DNA of 24,137 bases, taken from positions 1 to 24,137 of the IMG/VR virus record IMGVR_UViG_3300004807_000123. The stretch is one strand, 5' to 3'. Under the pieces are notes generated by a model. It did not search any database. It was not told the DNA's origin and worked only from the letters and a program-made list of their open reading frames with translations. Made by a program: the position numbers and the translations under genes. The stretch is from a virus. Every line of letters begins with the position of its first letter. Position 1 is the first letter of the stretch. Positions 4,820-22,575 of this stretch are shown in pieces.

Positions 4820-7197
4820 TATTTCTCCTCAATTAATCCAGAATGTGGATTGGTAGTTTCTTGTGCAAATTTATTACTTTTATATTTTGAATACAATCCT
4901 TTTCCTGCGCTAACAACAGGCACAGATAACCCACCTGTTTTTACAGCCAATGCGCCTTCACCTGACATTTTTATACCTTCTTTTAATAAATCGCCTAAAT
5001 ATGCAGAATAACTATTAGAGAAATTAAATACGTTTTCTGTTGGTTTTGCAACTTTTGAAGATAAAATACCTAAATCTAACAAATCTTGTAATGACTCAGC
5101 ATCATGCACATATTTTGCTTTATCAGCTTGTGATCTTAAATATTTGTTATACATATCAGGTTTTAATTGAGGAGTGCCAGTATTAGGAACAAGAGCATCT
5201 CTTGCGTTCATAATATCGCCTGCTTTAATTGCTTTAATTGCATTTGGTGAATCTTTTAATTCTTCCATCATTCTTCGCACAGATTCTGGAGTTGCACCAG
5301 TTACATATTTATCATGGAATTTTGCTGCATTTAAAGCCGTAAGACCAGATTCGGCTTCTTCCATGGTGGAGGCTTCTTTTACGGCTGCTTTATAAGCAGG
5401 GTTATTTTTAATGACTTCCATTCTTTCTTTATACAATGCCCTTGCTTTATCTGCTAAAGGCTTTAAATGTTGCATATTTTCTGGGAATGGTAAATTTTCT
5501 AATTGATCTCGAATAATATGAGCCGCAGCTCTAGCTGATCCACTTTGATTTGTTCGCATTTCATCAGCAAGATTTGATCTTAAATTTTCAAAATCATCAA
5601 ATGTCATTTGACCATTTTTTATTAATCCATCAATGTCTTTTTTAATTGTTCCCAATTTATCTTCATAAACATTGGTTTTTAGTTTTTTTGCTAAAGCATT
5701 ATTAATATTGGCATTCAATTGAGATACATCAATTGGCAATTGACCGCCATTAGCATTTTCTAAATCCTTATATGCAGTTTTAATTGCATTTTGACGCAAT
5801 AAATCTTTTTCTAATAATCCATTGATTTGCAATTGACCAATATTTTCTTTAGTCAATTCACCAATATCGCCAGCGTGTTTATCCAAAGTTCTTTCAAAAC
5901 TTTCTTGAAATTGCATTGGTTGATTACTAAATTTTTTCTGAATATCTGGGTTAGTATCTCTTGCATTCCATTCGTTTGCATAAACTGATTTATCATTGAT
6001 GCGCTGACCTTTAGATAAATCAATTCCATGCTTTTCTTCAAGTGCTTTAGTTTCCAAAGCAGGAAGATTAATTTTTTCCACAGGTGTGGATTTAATAATC
6101 TCTTGAGTTTCCGGCTTTAACTGAGGAAATATATTAGCAATTGATGATTGTTTATTTACATTGGCAGCACCAACGCCAGTCATTGTTTTTGGAATATCAA
6201 ATTCATCAATAGATACCGTTGGATTTATTGCTTTCTTTGCATTGGCAAATGATTCTTGTAAAGTGCCAAAACCTTCCGCAGCTGGAGTTAATACTTTGCC
6301 GGCAACAGAGATAACTGGTTTTGCCACTGCGCTTGCTGCGGTCATTACCGGCTTGGCTGATGGCCCTAATGGTAAATCATAAATACCACCCTTGATTATT
6401 TGACCTAATAACTCACCAGGCTCTGCTTGTGAAATTGCTTCATAGGTTTGAGATGGATTTAATAAAGCATTAATTGCCGTTTTGCCGGACTCAATTAATT
6501 TATTTTTTCCTTCTTGATGGAAACCTTGATCACCAACAATTGGCATTTCACCAACGCCATATTTCAACATATTGGCTAAAGTGGATTCTTTTTTCCAATC
6601 TTCTAAAGACATTGATTTTAAAGCATCTGTTACACCTTCAACGATTGGCTGTAAATTGCCACCACCGGCTTCCCTTGCTCGCTCTCCTTGTGCTACTAAA
6701 TTAGGATTATAAAAGCCTGGTTGATATGTTTTTTCTTCTTCAGGTTGATTAAGTAATAATTTATCTTGTTCAAATTGTTTTAAAATGTCATCTTGTGGAG
6801 GTTCGTAAAATGTTCTTTTGTAAGATGGATTAATGACAGCATGAACAGGGTCTTTTTTGCCTAATGGTCGATGAATACCAAATTGATTTAAAAACGCTTC
6901 TGGCACATCTCTGGATATATCCACTGCATCGGTATGGAATATTTCTCTATCTGGTTCTTTAGAAGGATCAAGAGGCATATAAATGCCTTTTTCGCCTCTT
7001 TTAAACCTATTATATAAATCTTGTTGTTCTTCTCTTGTGCGAGTTTTACTAGTAACAGGCAATTCTTTATTAAATTTTTCACGATAAACTCTACTGGCTT
7101 CTTTTAATCTAGCAGCCAACTCTGGATTGATTTCTGCATTTTCAAAATTACTTTTTTTGAAATCTGCAAAATCACTAAGAATATCAACATCAGCCAT
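4819..7197 (-). CDS. Large ejection protein with N-terminal M15-type peptidase-like domain, 792 aa
   Basis: The N-terminal ~125 residues resemble a D-Ala-D-Ala carboxypeptidase fold: TSKTRTREEQQDLYNRF (49-65), FHTDAVDI (His88, Asp93) and DPVHAVINP (His119). The loop between the first two ligands is shorter than in typical M15 enzymes, so activity is not certain. The rest is long, helical and Lys/Glu/Gln-rich, with an Ala/Val/Gly-rich stretch around residues 270-310 (PVMTAASAVAKPVISVAGKV) and another near the C-terminus that could touch membrane. In P22-like phages the last genes of this block encode proteins ejected with DNA (gp7, gp20, gp16); size and place fit gp16. A built-in wall peptidase would help the DNA channel cross peptidoglycan. 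Confidence 0.65.
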   Translation of the reverse strand: MADVDILSDFADFKKSNFENAEINPELAARLKEASRVYREKFNKELPVTSKTRTREEQQDLYNRFKRGEKGIYMPLDPSKEPDREIFHTDAVDISRDVPEAFLNQFGIHRPLGKKDPVHAVINPSYKRTFYEPPQDDILKQFEQDKLLLNQPEEEKTYQPGFYNPNLVAQGERAREAGGGNLQPIVEGVTDALKSMSLEDWKKESTLANMLKYGVGEMPIVGDQGFHQEGKNKLIESGKTAINALLNPSQTYEAISQAEPGELLGQIIKGGIYDLPLGPSAKPVMTAASAVAKPVISVAGKVLTPAAEGFGTLQESFANAKKAINPTVSIDEFDIPKTMTGVGAANVNKQSSIANIFPQLKPETQEIIKSTPVEKINLPALETKALEEKHGIDLSKGQRINDKSVYANEWNARDTNPDIQKKFSNQPMQFQESFERTLDKHAGDIGELTKENIGQLQINGLLEKDLLRQNAIKTAYKDLENANGGQLPIDVSQLNANINNALAKKLKTNVYEDKLGTIKKDIDGLIKNGQMTFDDFENLRSNLADEMRTNQSGSARAAAHIIRDQLENLPFPENMQHLKPLADKARALYKERMEVIKNNPAYKAAVKEASTMEEAESGLTALNAAKFHDKYVTGATPESVRRMMEELKDSPNAIKAIKAGDIMNARDALVPNTGTPQLKPDMYNKYLRSQADKAKYVHDAESLQDLLDLGILSSKVAKPTENVFNFSNSYSAYLGDLLKEGIKMSGEGALAVKTGGLSVPVVSAGKGLYSKYKSNKFAQETTNPHSGLIEEK

Positions 7198-10121: not shown

Positions 10122-12253
10122 TTTTCACCTACACTTGATTTAAGGTTAGCAGCCACAATGACCGCATTAATTGGATCAGTTACCACTAATTCAAATACTC
10201 GATCTCTAGTCATGCCTAATCTTCGCCAAATAGCACGATTCTTATATTTACCAATCTTACCAATACTTTTCCAATGCTCATTTGACCAAGTAGAGCCACC
10301 ATCATCGGACCATCTCATCATGGCCTGTGGATCAGCTCCCACAGTTTCAACATTTAATGGAGTAGTAATGCCAGTTAAACCAACACCAGGCTGAAAGTAC
10401 ACTTGTAATTCATCAAAGTATTCACGCTGATAATCGCTGACTAAATGCGTTGTTCTACGCAATCTACGGATTGGTTGGCCATTGTCAGTAAAATTGGTTG
10501 GATCTAATTCGTAAATATTGCCATTTTGCCAATCGCCAATCAACATCATATTCTGAAAGTTAATGCAACAATTGCCTCTGTGCCGGTGATACTGGTTTAA
10601 ATCATCACAGTAAAGCCACTTGTGCCACATTGAGGTTGCTACGTCATAGCACCATGTAATATCAAGCGTAGGGAAAGATAACACATAGACTTCATGGCCA
10701 CCCTGCTGATAAGTCCATGCCCTAGCATCCGTTACATCTTGATTAATGAAAGTGTTTTCGACTGCATGAGTAGAAATTCTAGTTGGAAAATATCCATTCA
10801 TCATTACTACTTCAGCTTGACCACGAATATTTTTACTTAGATAAGCAAATGAATTACCGACTCGAGCCACACTAAATTTGGCAACAATACCATGCTGACT
10901 AGAAGAACCAGGGATTCTTTGGAATGGGAATGGGAAAGCACCCACATCAGCCCAGACTTCAGAGGTAGTTTCGCCTAACAAATAAACTTGCCCATGATCT
11001 GCAATAACAGTTACTAAATTATCCGGTCCGGTAAACTTACTAGCAAAACTTAATGGTGGTGTAATTGGACTGAGGATATTGGACGCTGCCCATTGTTGAG
11101 TATTAGGATTATTGTAAATAAAGTAATTGTCGACAACATCCACAGAGCTTGCACCACTAAATGCACCATCAGTGGATGGCATCACTGAGAAATTGAGTGC
11201 ATACATGGTCTCGGATGCTACGGTCTGGCTATTATTAATTACATAATTGCCTGTGCCACCAGCACCAGTTCCAAAAGATAAAGTTAAGGTTAAACCTGTG
11301 CCACTTCCTGTGGTTGAAGTAGATACGTTATTTGTTGGGTTAGAAGTATAAGCACCCACATTTTGCACAGATAAGCCTGTAACTGCACCAGAGCCACCAA
11401 TTGAAGTTACTGTATAAGTCTGTGGTGTATTGCCATAAACACCCCCTAAAACTGTAATTGTGTCATTGACTGCATAACCTGTTCCTGCTGTTGCAATACT
11501 TTGGCTTAATACTGTGCCTGATCCATAAGTAGTAATAATCGTGTTTGCAGTTACTCCAGCACCTTGAATGGTTTGACCATTATAAATAGTGCCACTTGTT
11601 GCAGTAACAGTTAAAGTTGTGCCTGACATCGATGCAGTAAGAGTTGATGCTACTGCTGCCGAGTTCATTTGTTCTGTGGCAATCGTTAATGAAGTATTAA
11701 TCGTGTATGTACCAACTCCACCTGTTCCTGAGCCTAATGCAGTGATTACCACTTCATTGCCGATACCTAAACCAAATAATGATTGACCTACTGCGATAGT
11801 GCCTGATTGCATTAATGTAACAGTTAAAGTTGTTCCACTGATCGAACCTCTAAATATAGCCGATGCAGGATTACTAATTCGCCAAGTATAACGATAAGTA
11901 CCATCAACAATATAGACGTTTTGACCATTGTCGGTAATTCCTACAATACCTGATGAGGTATTTAATTGACCTACTAATGTTGGGGTTAGATTAGACGTTA
12001 AAACATAAACATAAGGCCCACAAACTGCAACAGCATATTGCCCACCACTAACAGTTCTCATTCCTCGCACTTCAGCCATTGCTGACAAAACTGCTTTAGC
12101 AGATAAACCTGGCGTTGGATATAAGGCCACTACACCATTTTGACCTGCTTGTTTTGTAATATCTATTTCTGTACGAAAATTGATGCAATCTTCGCCATTG
12201 ACGTAAATGGACTGAGCAACATAAGTAGGGCCAACAAAGCCAAAATCTGCCAT
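10118..12253 (-). CDS. Tail hub / packaged-DNA stabilisation protein, P22 gp10-like, with inserted modules
   Basis: The N-terminal ~130 residues and the region from ~355 to the end match the beta-propeller-like gp10 family: VVDNYFIYNNPNTQQW, GIVAKFSVARVGNSFAYLSK, and the C-terminal MMRWSDDGGSTWSNEHW with IGKYKNRAIWRRLGMTRDR. In P22, gp10 caps the portal channel with gp4 and holds the DNA in. This copy (711 aa) is about 240 residues longer than P22 gp10 because residues ~134-352 are Gly/Thr/Ser-rich inserts: one full module at 134-200, and a second at ~205-352 that is itself split by another module at ~248-328. The start overlaps the endonuclease stop (TAATG); the binding site AAAGGAG lies in the endonuclease's last codons. 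Confidence 0.85.
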   Translation of the reverse strand: MADFGFVGPTYVAQSIYVNGEDCINFRTEIDITKQAGQNGVVALYPTPGLSAKAVLSAMAEVRGMRTVSGGQYAVAVCGPYVYVLTSNLTPTLVGQLNTSSGIVGITDNGQNVYIVDGTYRYTWRISNPASAIFRGSISGTTLTVTLMQSGTIAVGQSLFGLGIGNEVVITALGSGTGGVGTYTINTSLTIATEQMNSAAVASTLTASMSGTTLTVTATSGTIYNGQTIQGAGVTANTIITTYGSGTVLSQSIATAGTGYAVNDTITVLGGVYGNTPQTYTVTSIGGSGAVTGLSVQNVGAYTSNPTNNVSTSTTGSGTGLTLTLSFGTGAGGTGNYVINNSQTVASETMYALNFSVMPSTDGAFSGASSVDVVDNYFIYNNPNTQQWAASNILSPITPPLSFASKFTGPDNLVTVIADHGQVYLLGETTSEVWADVGAFPFPFQRIPGSSSQHGIVAKFSVARVGNSFAYLSKNIRGQAEVVMMNGYFPTRISTHAVENTFINQDVTDARAWTYQQGGHEVYVLSFPTLDITWCYDVATSMWHKWLYCDDLNQYHRHRGNCCINFQNMMLIGDWQNGNIYELDPTNFTDNGQPIRRLRRTTHLVSDYQREYFDELQVYFQPGVGLTGITTPLNVETVGADPQAMMRWSDDGGSTWSNEHWKSIGKIGKYKNRAIWRRLGMTRDRVFELVVTDPINAVIVAANLKSSVGEN

Positions 12254-12858
12254 TAAATAACTCCTTTATATCGTTCACCACGCCATATTTTATGTATGGT
12301 ATTTTTGTGAACATTAAATTTATTACCTAATTCAATATGAGTCATAATCCCTTTGTTGGCTCGAACAAATCTTACTTCGTCATCTGTTAATTTTGCAGTA
12401 TTCTTGTTTCCAAGCAATCCTTTGCTAATTGCTTCACAATGTGATTCTGTTAATGGTTTTCCAATTCTGGCAATACTTATTTTTTCTTTGGTTTCATCTG
12501 TTAATTTAACCCCTTTACGAGGGCTTTGAACACCTTTACGCATTACACTCCATTTGCGTTTTTGGTATTCAGAATGACTCATTGAATAGCCAGAACAACC
12601 TTCACCACCATTTGTTAAATTAATTAATTTGATACCACGCTTTTTATAAACATCAATACATTCCATTTCAGCTAAAAAAGCCAATTCTTCATCTAAATTA
12701 TCTTTAATTATTTCAGATACAAATCCATGCTTCGCAACATAAAATTTCCAATATCTACCTCTTTTATTTGTATCAGAGTGACGCTTGTCTTTACCTTTTC
12801 CAACATAAAAGATATTGTTAGTGTCTAATGCTCGATGTTGATAGATGTAATATTGCAT
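12253..12858 (-). CDS. Free-standing GIY-YIG homing endonuclease, 201 aa
   Basis: I start at ATG 12858 (MQYYIYQHRALDTNNIFYVG), 13 nt after the gp4-like stop; the longer frame would extend back into that gene. Residues 1-90 are a GIY-YIG nuclease domain: YYIY (3-6), FYVGKG (17-22), basic residues around RGRYWKF, a Glu in AEMECIDVY (64 or 66, expected metal ligand) and INLTNGGEG. Residues ~105-152 carry repeats of the NUMOD3 DNA-binding type (KGVKLTDETKEKISIARIGK). The C-terminus (THIELGNKFNVHKNTIHKIW) is a helix-turn-helix. Such enzymes cut DNA lacking their insertion and spread by repair. It sits exactly between gp4 and gp10 homologues, and its last codons supply the gp10 binding site. Confidence 0.88.
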   Translation of the reverse strand: MQYYIYQHRALDTNNIFYVGKGKDKRHSDTNKRGRYWKFYVAKHGFVSEIIKDNLDEELAFLAEMECIDVYKKRGIKLINLTNGGEGCSGYSMSHSEYQKRKWSVMRKGVQSPRKGVKLTDETKEKISIARIGKPLTESHCEAISKGLLGNKNTAKLTDDEVRFVRANKGIMTHIELGNKFNVHKNTIHKIWRGERYKGVI

Positions 12859-12871
12859 AAGTATATGATTC

Positions 12872-13843
12872 TTAACGAAAAAATCCGCCTGCGAGAACCC
12901 AACCAGCATCTTTCTGTCTACTACTTAATAACGCATCAGCAAACCTTGCATTCTGTACCGGCTTCATGTTTGTACGTTTAATAGTGCTTTTAGATTGTGC
13001 TGCGTAACTCTGAATTAAACCAATTTGCGTTGGTGAGGCTTTGCCATACATCGGCATTAAACGCTCTGCTAAGCACCATCTAAGGCACATATTGTAGCCT
13101 TGAGGTAAATTGATTACATCATTCTGATTAACGAATCTTGCTAGAATAGTATTTGCAAATAGATGCATTTCACCTTGTGATGGATTGGGCCACACAAAGA
13201 TATTACCGAGTGTTTCTGTTGGCTGATAATAAATTGCTTTAGGCCAAGGACCAGATAAAGTTTTTAAACCAATCATTTCATAATTTTCAACGCTCAATAT
13301 TGCGCAAGGATAATCTAAGCCACCATTTAATATTGGCTGACCATTACTGTTTGTATTGACTCGAACAAAGGCAGTATCAATTACTAGTGGTCTTTGGTAA
13401 TAAGAGTTGATTGTTGTAGAAGATGCAGTTTGACTTATATTAACTGTATATGTGCCTGCTTCGTTAATGTTGCCACCAGCACCAGTTCCAAAGCCTACGA
13501 TAGTTGTGCCACTAGAAACACCTGTTCCTGATAGCGTCTGACCTAATGCAATTGCACCACTCTGAATCGCAGTAATGGTTAAGGTTGTGCCAGAGATTGA
13601 GCCAGTAAAGACTGCACCAATCTGCCCACCTGGTCCAATCGTGTATTGTGTTTGCCCTGGTGTGACTGGAAAGATAATTTCAGTCTTATAGTAAATCATC
13701 ATGGATTCATTAGACCATTGATCTAACATATCATTGAGCATATCAAAGGCATCTTGTGCATCTTCAGGAGCAGGAGTTTCTCCGGCAGCCAAAGCACCAA
13801 TGTCCTTTAATGCTCTGCTGATAATGTCAATTGGCTGTGTCAT
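12872..13843 (-). CDS. Tail accessory factor, P22 gp4-like, with inserted beta module
   Basis: The N-terminus [17 protein letters not shown], then [18 protein letters not shown], and the C-terminal half ([33 protein letters not shown]) are those of the gp4 'packaged DNA stabilisation' family, a helical ring that sits under the portal and binds the tail hub. P22 gp4 is about 166 aa; this one is 323 aa, partly because residues ~75-148 ([20 protein letters not shown] ... [13 protein letters not shown]) are an inserted Gly/Thr-rich module like that in the gp10 homologue. The longer family members known from environmental phages are nearer this size. The start overlaps the preceding stop by ATGA. 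Confidence 0.8.
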
Positions 13844-19668: not shown

Positions 19669-21193
19669 TTAAGCTGCGATACGGCAAGCGAGTTCAGGAT
19701 AGAGCGGGGCCCATCCGTACAATACATCTAAACGAGTAGGAATACTGTCGTTGTTAATTGTGTATTGACGAACAATACGCATACTTAAACCGATTTCCTT
19801 ATCAGAGGCACGACCTGCGAAATGAACACCTTCAGGGAGCTCTAAATCTGCTACTGCGAGCGAAAAAGAATTTCTATGCATGATTATATTCTGTGGAGAT
19901 ACTGCACCAGTTGAATTGAACTGAGTTACCGCAGCAGAAGATGATGGTGAAGGAATCGATACGTTTTGGAACTGGCCAGCAGTAATAACCGCAGGAGATA
20001 CCACAACAGAAACGCTTGAACCTGAAGCAATCGTAACAGCAGACTTAACCACAAAGTTACGGAGCTTGTTTGAACCATACGCTTGACGATTCTGTGGGTT
20101 AACTGCGTAAACACCAGCGATCGTGAATGTATCACCGGCATTTAATACTAAGTTACCAGTATTGGCAGCAGTCAAAGTGATTGTTGAGCTTGATGCCCAG
20201 CCACTTGTTAAGAAACCAGTTGCAGTTGTAGTTGCTACAGATGCAGTCACAGTAGTTGTGCTGTTATTACCGAATACTTGAGACTGAATATTTTGGTCTA
20301 ATTTCCAGTTCATCCCCGCGGAATCGCGACCCATAAGTCCTTTGCGATACTGTTCGCCAATTGCTTCTTGAGGTACGAATAAACCTTTTAAAGAATCAAC
20401 AATCGTTGCAGATGTGAATGGCTCAACGATGCATGATCTGCGACCATCTCTAGGAGCACCTTCAGAATCAAGGTAAGCACCAGCAGTTAGATAAGTAATC
20501 AAACCAGTTGGAGGAGTACCAGCAACACCTACAATGTTTGCAGTATTGAGGGTAGCCATTGCCAATCCATCTCTGTCAATTTTGTTTGCAATCGCAGCGA
20601 CTGCAGGCTTCAAAACTCTATCGCTGAACATATCTAAAGATAATGCTAAGTCGGTCGTTGTAAACTGTGTGTCAACGTGGAACTGCGTTGACAAAGTAAT
20701 AGGTACAGATGATTCGTTAAAATCTTCTACGTTCAGGGCTGGCCCTGTTGATCCAATAAAGCGTCCAGGTCTCATTCTGTTACTTTCAGTCTTACGACCT
20801 ACTGACCATTTCTGGCGGTGCAATTTCTTCGAATCGCACTCTAAGGCTTCTTTAGTTATACCTTAGTTCAGACTATCGCATCTACTTTCGTAGGCTTCTC
20901 ACTTAGTCGTTCAGGCTGCTTTCGCTTGCCCCTTGTTACCCACTTCTGGGACTCCAAGTCAATCAGAGAAACTTTTTCGTCCGCACACCTAGTTCTTTTT
21001 ACGGACGTTTACTGTGTTACCAATCTTACCACCTCAAATGCAAGATTCACAGTAAAAACTGAGGCAGGCTTTATACCACAGCGAATTGATCGTCATAATT
21101 ACGATCTACTTCAGAAGTGAATGTTAATTCGTTCTCCAAGACCATCAACGCTTCGTTGGTGATCTTAGAAATGGTTAGCAAGTTATTTGCCAT
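19669..21193 (-). CDS. Major capsid (coat) protein, P22 coat family, split by an intron and a 40-nt insertion
   Basis: Coding segments on the minus strand are 21193-21074 (MANNLLTISKITNEALMVLE ... YDDQFAV), 21033-21001 (GGKIGNTVNVR) and 20772-19669 (RPGRFIGSTGPALNVEDFNE to the end). Joined they give about 418 residues, close to the ~430 of P22-type coat. Motifs such as LTISKITNEAL, YDDQFAV, KIGNTVNVR and TTTDLALSLDMFSDR are those of the family, which builds the HK97-fold shell. The 228-nt gap at 20773-21000 is a group I intron and restores the frame exactly (NVR/RPGRF). The 40 nt at 21034-21073 starts with TAA, ends with TGA and shifts the frame; no intron explains it. The binding site AAAGGAA lies before ATG 21193. 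As written, the mRNA would not give full coat without removing or skipping the 40 nt. Confidence 0.85.
20773..21000 (-). ncRNA. Group I self-splicing intron, 228 nt, no ORF
   Basis: On the minus strand, P1 pairs the exon end CGTCCGT (21007-21001) with the guide GCGGACG (20984-20978), ending in the U-G wobble typical of group I 5' sites. P10 can form between AGGT (20990-20987) and exon ACCT (20770-20767). Core elements: P3 TTCTC (20970-20966) with GAGAA (20900-20896); P5-like hairpin CCCA-GAAG-TGGG (20950-20939); P6-like hairpin at 20930-20914 with a GAAA loop; P7 GACTA (20908-20904) with TAGTC (20875-20871), inside CCTGAACGACTA and GATAGTCTGAAC; P8 CTAC-GAAA-GTAG (20893-20882); P9 CTAAGG (20866-20861) with CCTTAG (20846-20841). 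The last intron base is G 20773. Removal joins GNTVNVR to RPGRFIGS in frame. An in-frame TAG appears four codons into the intron. Confidence 0.88.
21034..21073 (-). other. 40-nt frame-breaking insertion in the coat gene with long hairpin potential
   Basis: Relative to the coat family, 40 nt stand between the codons for ...FAVV and GGKIGNTVNVR. The segment begins TAA, ends TGA and shifts the frame by one. Its 3' half is an inverted near-copy of the following coding sequence: TTTACTGTG (21056-21048) pairs with CACAGTAAA (21016-21008), and AATCTTGC (21047-21040) with GTAAGATT (21029-21022). This gives 17 bp with a 5-nt bulge and a 10-nt loop. The hairpin base abuts intron helix P1. An alternative stem, CTGCCTCA with TGAGGTGG, is also possible. 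Origin and effect are unknown; an assembly or base error cannot be excluded. Confidence 0.6.
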
Positions 21194-22155: not shown

Positions 22156-22575
22156 TTATTTATTTTTTTTGTGTTTTCTTAACATGATTGGTTCATTGGC
22201 TTGATTTCCTTTTTCCCCAGTTATTTCATAGCCATGTTTTTTATAAAAATCAACTAAATTATTAAGTTTTGTTTCTTTATCTAATGGAGATGCTAATAAT
22301 TTTGTGTCATACCCTAATTCATCTGCTTTTTCATGAATATGTTTCATAATTTCTGAACCATGCCCTTGCCCTCTGTGAGCTTTAGGTGTTCTAACACTAT
22401 TTATATCAATGTATTTTTTATTATGATTAATTTGGTAAATAGCAGTAGATTTTCCTAATTTTGTTTCCATTATTGGATTTTTTTCATCACTTCCTAATTT
22501 TTTTTCTTTAGGTTCAGATAATTTTTTTTCGTTATATTCTTCACGATTTTCAGAAGTAACAATTTCTCTAGGCAT
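22156..22575 (-). CDS. GNAT-family N-acetyltransferase, 139 aa
   Basis: The acetyl-CoA-binding motif A is clear: VRTPKAHRGQGHGSEIMKHI, with RGQGHG at 68-73. It is followed by helix and strand elements (ADELGYDTKLLASPLD) and motif B, LVDFYKKHGYEITG (107-120). The first ~40 residues are a charged extension, MPREIVTSENREEYNEKKL, that resembles the scaffold N-terminus. The substrate cannot be predicted: host protein, small molecule or virion protein are all possible. It is inserted between portal and scaffold, overlapping the portal stop (TAATG), so it is made late with head proteins. It is not part of the core P22 gene set and can be seen as a moron-like addition. Confidence 0.8.
   Translation of the reverse strand: MPREIVTSENREEYNEKKLSEPKEKKLGSDEKNPIMETKLGKSTAIYQINHNKKYIDINSVRTPKAHRGQGHGSEIMKHIHEKADELGYDTKLLASPLDKETKLNNLVDFYKKHGYEITGEKGNQANEPIMLRKHKKNK

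Follow-up and report, generated by a model that had tools for sequence, protein, structure and literature searches.

A 40-nt segment that breaks the reading frame of a phage coat protein gene is real and conserved. It very probably represents a mini group I intron that has splice-site parts, lacks a catalytic core and would be spliced in cis by the ribozyme of the full group I intron downstream. The window, i.e., the whole 24,137-nt stretch that was analysed (IMG/VR record IMGVR_UViG_3300004807_000123), carries on its minus strand a P22-like coat gene, which matches Pfam P22_CoatProtein in its downstream part, and a P22-like portal gene (Pfam). A GNAT acetyltransferase ORF (22156-22575, minus strand) is flanked by the portal gene and by the ORF that lies upstream of the coat gene. 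The ORF at 12253-12909 on the same strand, which we take to resemble a GIY-YIG homing endonuclease, had no Pfam match at an E-value of 0.001. From its start at 21193, the coat frame suffers two interruptions: 40 nt follow codon V40, and 228 nt follow codon R51 (Table 1).

The initial annotation located the first break at 21073-21034 of the minus strand (TAAAG...TTTGA), between the codons for ...YDDQFAVV and GGKIGNTVNVR, and regarded both flanking pieces as coat-family sequence. Both statements were borne out, as relatives join the two pieces in one unbroken frame. For this comparison, viral contigs were scanned for the coat protein, and the best 80 of 597 relative-encoding loci were kept. The coat reads YDDQF(A/S)(V/I)VG(G/A)KIG..VN(V/I)R(R/K)PGRF without interruption in 79 of these best 80 loci, with T or I replacing the second V of the YDDQF stretch in a few of them. 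One locus (L031), in which the YDDQF pattern had no match, was scored as unbroken from its start-codon distance. The sole exception among the best 80 is L041, which carries the insert and the intron of the window. The unbroken relatives indicate that the proper coat junctions are V40-G41 and R51-R52. None of the 79 intronless loci contains the insert, and a search of these loci with model R1, which was built from 24 group I cores, found no core.

Table 1. Features of the interrupted coat gene in the window (RNA letters are those of the minus strand; ^ marks a junction or predicted splice site).
Feature	Position	Strand	Details and basis
Coat exon 1	21075..21193	-	start codon 21193-21191; covers M1 through the second base of codon V40; 3' end = U; homology
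P1' 5' exon strand GCUGUGGU	21075..21082	-	U at predicted splice site; covariation
Predicted core-less mini group I intron, 40 nt	21035..21074	-	AUAAAG...UUUG; omega-G 21035; in-frame stop UAA 21073-21071
P10' intron strand CCU	21066..21068	-	pairs with AGG 21034-21032
P1' intron strand, internal guide GCCUCAGU	21058..21065	-	covariation
Helix H 5' arm UUUACUGUG	21048..21056	-	in insert; covariation
Micro-exon, 34 nt	21001..21034	-	AGG...CGU; encodes GGKIGNTVNVR
Helix H 3' arm CACAGUAAA	21008..21016	-	inside micro-exon; covariation
P1 5' exon strand CGUCCGU	21001..21007	-	pairs with GCGGACG
Full group I intron, 228 nt	20773..21000	-	omega-G 20773; R51^R52 junction from relatives; core covariation; model R1 130.5 bits
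P1 guide strand GCGGACG	20978..20984	-	pairs with CGUCCGU
Catalytic core P3-P8	20866..20976	-	only core found in window
Coat exon 3	19669..20772	-	R52 to stop; homology and Pfam

In group I introns, the 5' exon ends with a U that forms a U.G pair with the guide, the intron ends with G, and the guide pairings are P1 and P10. The insert can slide by one base; the register one base upstream of that first proposed (21074-21035) leaves a U at the end of the exon and UG at the end of the insert, exactly as in full introns. The original coordinates thus hold and are refined to this better register. Within the insert lies the guide CCU-GCCUCAGU, of which GCCUCAGU pairs with the exon strand GCUGUGGU (P1') and CCU with the AGG opening the next exon (P10'). 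P1' has the U.G pair at the splice site that characterizes the helix at a group I 5' site, and it contains a U.U mismatch three pairs above the splice site, invariant in 20/20 sequences. The P10' pairing CCU/AGG is invariant too and has no covariation support. The first in-frame stop is found 0 or 1 codon past V40 in 52/52 insert-bearing records; many group I introns that interrupt coding genes have a stop soon after the 5' splice site (PMC3984707). A catalytic core of its own is missing from the insert, which is 32-41 nt long, and it would thus be a core-less derivative rather than an autonomous group I intron. Model R1, run across the window, detected no core besides that of the downstream intron. 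The omega-G of the mini intron sits upstream of this core, an unusual connection.

Exact and degenerate scans recovered the insert, in exact or diverged form, in 51 other viral records, giving 52 with the window included. These records were found by patterns that fix parts of the junctions or of the guide, and stronger variants may be missed. The insert-bearing family consists of freshwater phages. A 26-nt stretch of the insert occurs without change in three other viral contigs, the flanks of which differ by up to 8%, and exon DNA identity in a set of 11 records was 58-70% for pairs that include L227 and 73-92% for the remaining pairs. The initial suggestion of an assembly error is untenable given this recurrence in many contigs; the broader reading as an assembly error or a recent insertion mutation has next to no probability in view of 51 other records with compensatory divergence. 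A DNA search of plasmids gave no match. Only MW202520 and MW202674 were close relatives among phage records. The coat gene of MW202520 is annotated and was matched in one piece, and MW202674 carries a related intron at another coat site, without the insert. The annotation of MW202674.1 (16569-18084; L085) gives the coat gene as two P22 coat proteins; the gene is divided by an intron of this group I family that the annotation omits.

With two of the 52 records (those of the window and of L041) counted twice, 54 loci were available for measuring the insert, which is 32 nt long in four, 33 in three, 34 in 12, 40 in 34 and 41 in one. These lengths span all three phases, which rules out a constant programmed frameshift, and removal of the insert restores the coat frame at every length. 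The full intron and then the third exon follow the insert in 48/54 loci (46/52 records); the remaining six insert contigs stop 5-193 nt past the micro-exon. Likewise, all 43 stretches found by the P1 pattern of the full intron carry the insert. A different intron of 215 nt occupies R51^R52 in L162 and L169 without any insert, indicating that an intron at this site can do without it. The micro-exon is 34 nt long in all 20 distinct sequences compared. Codons 39-40 read GTG(G/A)TA in 52/52 insert records versus 0/86 loci without insert; the pattern behind the count of 52 requires these letters, and in a separate scan that fixed nothing upstream of TGAGG, all 51 stretches other than full introns (51/51) showed them as well. 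The UUG^AGG end is present in 52/52 records, this end and the U^A start being partly fixed by the search patterns.

The pairings of the insert are supported by covariation. Codon Ala38 has T as its third base in 39 of the 52 records, A in 11 and G in two, and the guide base that faces it is always the complement (A, T and C, respectively). A tree built from the coat exons requires six changes to account for these states, at least four of them forced by well-supported branches; record counts do not equal independent events, and the six changes are the fairer figure. L227 combines GUGAU with the guide GUCUC, instead of GUGGU with GCCUC. When P1', P10', H and P1 were scored together in 20 distinct sequences, 96.1% of the cells were paired, with the U.U mismatch counted as a failed pair. 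Five pairs were double-changed in 18 such cells, a value reached by 0/500 shuffles, and slid structures paired 30-49%. Pair counts with further sequences were made on joined pieces; 13 distinct rows of this kind gave six double-changed pairs and 22 cells (0/500 shuffles as high). A templated inverted-repeat mutation, another of the origins first considered, leaves these repeated compensatory changes in diverged phages unexplained.

The 17-bp hairpin that the insert had been predicted to form with the following coding piece (helix H) is indeed the minimum-energy structure, with 9 + 8 bp and a 5-nt bulge (z = -3.1; 2/200 shuffles as good). It also ends where P1 begins, as had been noted: its 3' strand ends at 21008 and P1 begins at the next base, 21007. 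Helix H covaries: all four letters occur at the third position of V49, each with its matching partner. In local folds, the three adjacent hairpins P1', H and P1 form together, and P3 follows directly. The local fold keeps P1'; the minimum-energy fold of the whole region loses the full P1'. As H abuts P1 exactly, it could tune the folding of the full intron, and the insert might be retained in the RNA, where it would extend the ribozyme in a structural or regulatory role, with full coat protein made from another genome copy or not at all. We regard such retention as a very improbable outcome, only an artefact being less likely. According to the whole-gene alignment, the coat exons remain in frame in those insert-bearing loci that reach them, and an essential gene broken in 52 diverged records, with compensatory changes, is not expected to persist. 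Of the four options in the initial annotation, the extension of the ribozyme nevertheless came closest: group I splice-site elements and a pairing beside P1 are present, but they point to a separate core-less intron and not to an extension.

The downstream intron is a group I intron by its features and is predicted to be self-splicing. Its P1 has a U.G pair at the splice site, its last base is G, and in L229 P1 shows a compensatory change from C-G to U-A. The conserved P3-P8 core includes the P3/P7 pseudoknot. Over 41 introns, P3, P4, P5, P6, P7, P8 and P9 were 97.3% paired with 279 double-changed cells (0/500 shuffles as good); P7 and most of P4 are invariant, and P7 has no covariation of its own. 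The core pattern was found in at least 119 stretches of viral contigs, and this intron family is common in these phages. Rfam gave no match at the gathering score in the window, L087, L092, L162 or L228, and E-values up to 10 added chance-level matches only; an Rfam match is a test of detection and not a structural feature.

The degenerate scan for the insert returned 53 stretches, 51 of which were not full introns. A complete group I intron sits at exactly the site of the mini intron, GT^AGG, in L232 and L233, with the layout GCCGTGGT^AAACAACCTGCCCCGC...core...AACAAATTG^AGGCG in L232. Both match the mini intron in the CCUGCC guide start, the position of the P1 mismatch and the UUG^AGG end, and both have an in-frame stop after the 5' splice site. 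Their Ala codon GCC faces G, a fourth base combination. They differ from the mini intron in having a catalytic core of their own and their own hairpin after P1, which in L232 occupies the place taken by H in the window, and at R51^R52 neither contains a second intron. The same guide and the same ends at the same site make it most likely that the insert is a core-less group I intron. The simplest reading of these sequences is that the 40-nt element was an L232-like intron whose core was lost. The order may also have been the reverse, with the full-length intron derived from the core-less element.

Splicing of the insert, the cis action of the neighbouring core and the order of events are deduced from sequence, and the pathway below is put forward as a model. 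The mini intron would retain a P1' guide, a P10' guide and the terminal UG, its catalytic core having been lost. P1', formed by the exon strand and the guide, would dock on the core of the full intron, and guanosine would cleave after GUGGU. Still held by the guide, the released U could then attack at UUG^AGG, a site presented in the loop of helix H and aligned by P10'. Next, P1 of the full intron (CGUCCGU/GCGGACG) would dock, and the 228-nt intron would depart. The mini intron would have to leave first because its link to the core disappears once the full intron has left. If a composite ribozyme skipped the micro-exon, GT would be ligated to AGACC and the frame lost. Keeping the two pairs of splice sites separate may be a function of the two P10 pairings (CCU/AGG and AGGU/ACCU).

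Group I excision could also be carried out by a core acting in trans, namely that of the released downstream intron, of another transcript copy or of an intron elsewhere in the phage or host. Engineered group I ribozymes cut out internal segments in trans (PMC6155759, PMC4094466), and neither P1' nor P10' requires a covalent link to the core. Here, however, the guide sits in the excised piece and not in the ribozyme. Moreover, action in cis is favoured by the linkage to one cis intron 34 nt away and by helix H, whose covariation connects the insert with the stretch beside P1. Six insert-bearing records were searched over their whole length. G001 (35.7 kb), G003 (36.4 kb) and G006 (19.2 kb) contain one core each, and no second core of the R1 family was found in them. 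G002, G004 and G005 have one extra core about 0.3-0.4 kb further on, in agreement with a further coat intron in L113, L218 and L093. We consider excision in trans unlikely, though the least improbable of the alternatives, and favour splicing of the core-less intron in cis.

Translational bypassing, also among the options raised at the outset, would have ribosomes leave the GTA codon before UAA and land past the insert, aided by P1' as a take-off stem and by H. The size, the stop beside the take-off codon (0-1 codon after V40) and the stem-loop at take-off resemble the element of T4 gene 60, in which ribosomes cross 50 nt between a GGA take-off codon and a matching GGA landing codon (PMC11194080). 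The insert itself lacks such a cognate landing codon. The triplet before the resumed codon is TGA in 52/52 records, and the take-off codon is absent from the resumed frame within the insert in all 52, in agreement with the earlier remark that no landing codon in frame matches the take-off codon. Bypassing also leaves unexplained the linkage to a group I intron, the U...UG ends, P10' and the full introns with the same site and ends. We judge it much less probable than excision in trans, and marginally more probable than retention in the RNA.

Across this phage group (L085-L228), the coat gene contains group I introns at about 15 different codon positions, in frame. In the whole-gene coat alignment, full introns occupy many further codon positions, and small inserts that break the frame are absent from these sites, apart from some multiples of three, poorly aligned contig ends, L199, which is aligned badly throughout, and an 11-nt insert in L111. 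This insert (GACGAT^CTATAAACCTG^CAG, within 5822-5976) breaks the frame at codon 35, is followed after 38 nt by a full group I intron (codon 48), obeys the rule U^...UG^ and resembles the start of the mini intron. L228 is identical to L111 over 6,508 bases. The 11-nt insert may be either a second core-less intron or a recombination scar. An automatic screen for hidden mini introns covered 145 core matches, 12 of them without a predicted splice site. It flagged the known coat cases, L111 and L228, and the other rows were read as gene starts or mispredicted splice sites; this rough screen thus yielded no convincing mini intron in another gene. The coat gene of L227 combines the mini intron with full introns at codons 22, 51, 358 and 386. 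In L143, codon 36 of the coat gene is the site of another type of intron, 288 nt long and flanked by CAGT and TCGCT. The only match to the core pattern in the collection of genome contigs was in a Burkholderiales MAG contig (L237, CAITYM010000129.1), which is perhaps phage sequence.

No natural core-less group I intron was found in the literature searched, which consisted mainly of open-licence papers. Several known systems share parts of the arrangement. Group III introns of Euglena chloroplasts, which are degenerate group II introns, are short and have kept splice-site parts while the core is gone (PMC8393795), but they differ in their group II ancestry and are not tied to one neighbouring intron. 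Trans excision-splicing ribozymes and spliceozymes use a group I core to cut out an internal segment other than itself (PMC6155759, PMC4094466); these are engineered, act in trans and carry the guide in the ribozyme, whereas the present system is natural, probably acts in cis and has its guide in the excised piece. A short exon between two group I introns also occurs in Twort orf142 and in genes of phiNIT1 and SIOphi, for which a composite ribozyme has been proposed as a model of phage exon skipping (PMC10136302, PMC11878797). As these systems are described there, exons are skipped and no intron is said to be core-less; in the coat gene of the window, one intron is core-less and skipping of the micro-exon would break the frame. 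Hypomyces cox3-i2 likewise has two neighbouring group IA introns treated as a complex (PMC4964425). There, both group IA introns lie within one intron, and the abstract describes no core-less mini intron. The T4 gene 60 element is, like the insert, short and frame-breaking, with a stop and a hairpin past the take-off codon (PMC11194080); it differs from the insert in the landing codon described above.

Taken together, the coat gene probably harbours a natural system of two introns and one ribozyme, in which a non-autonomous intron of 32-41 nt would borrow the core of the next intron, and a helix with the micro-exon would set the order of splicing. If this holds, a self-splicing ribozyme serves a second, core-less intron, which would be a step toward the separation of catalyst and substrate introns that has been proposed for the origin of spliceosomal splicing. 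The mini intron would then be the group I counterpart of the degenerate group II (group III) introns, and the system a natural cis version of the engineered spliceozyme. As a natural example it would be small and testable, and the same site harbours full-length relatives of the mini intron. It would also mean that a capsid gene with an apparently disrupted frame in metagenomic data may be intact. The curated Rfam threshold misses introns of this family.
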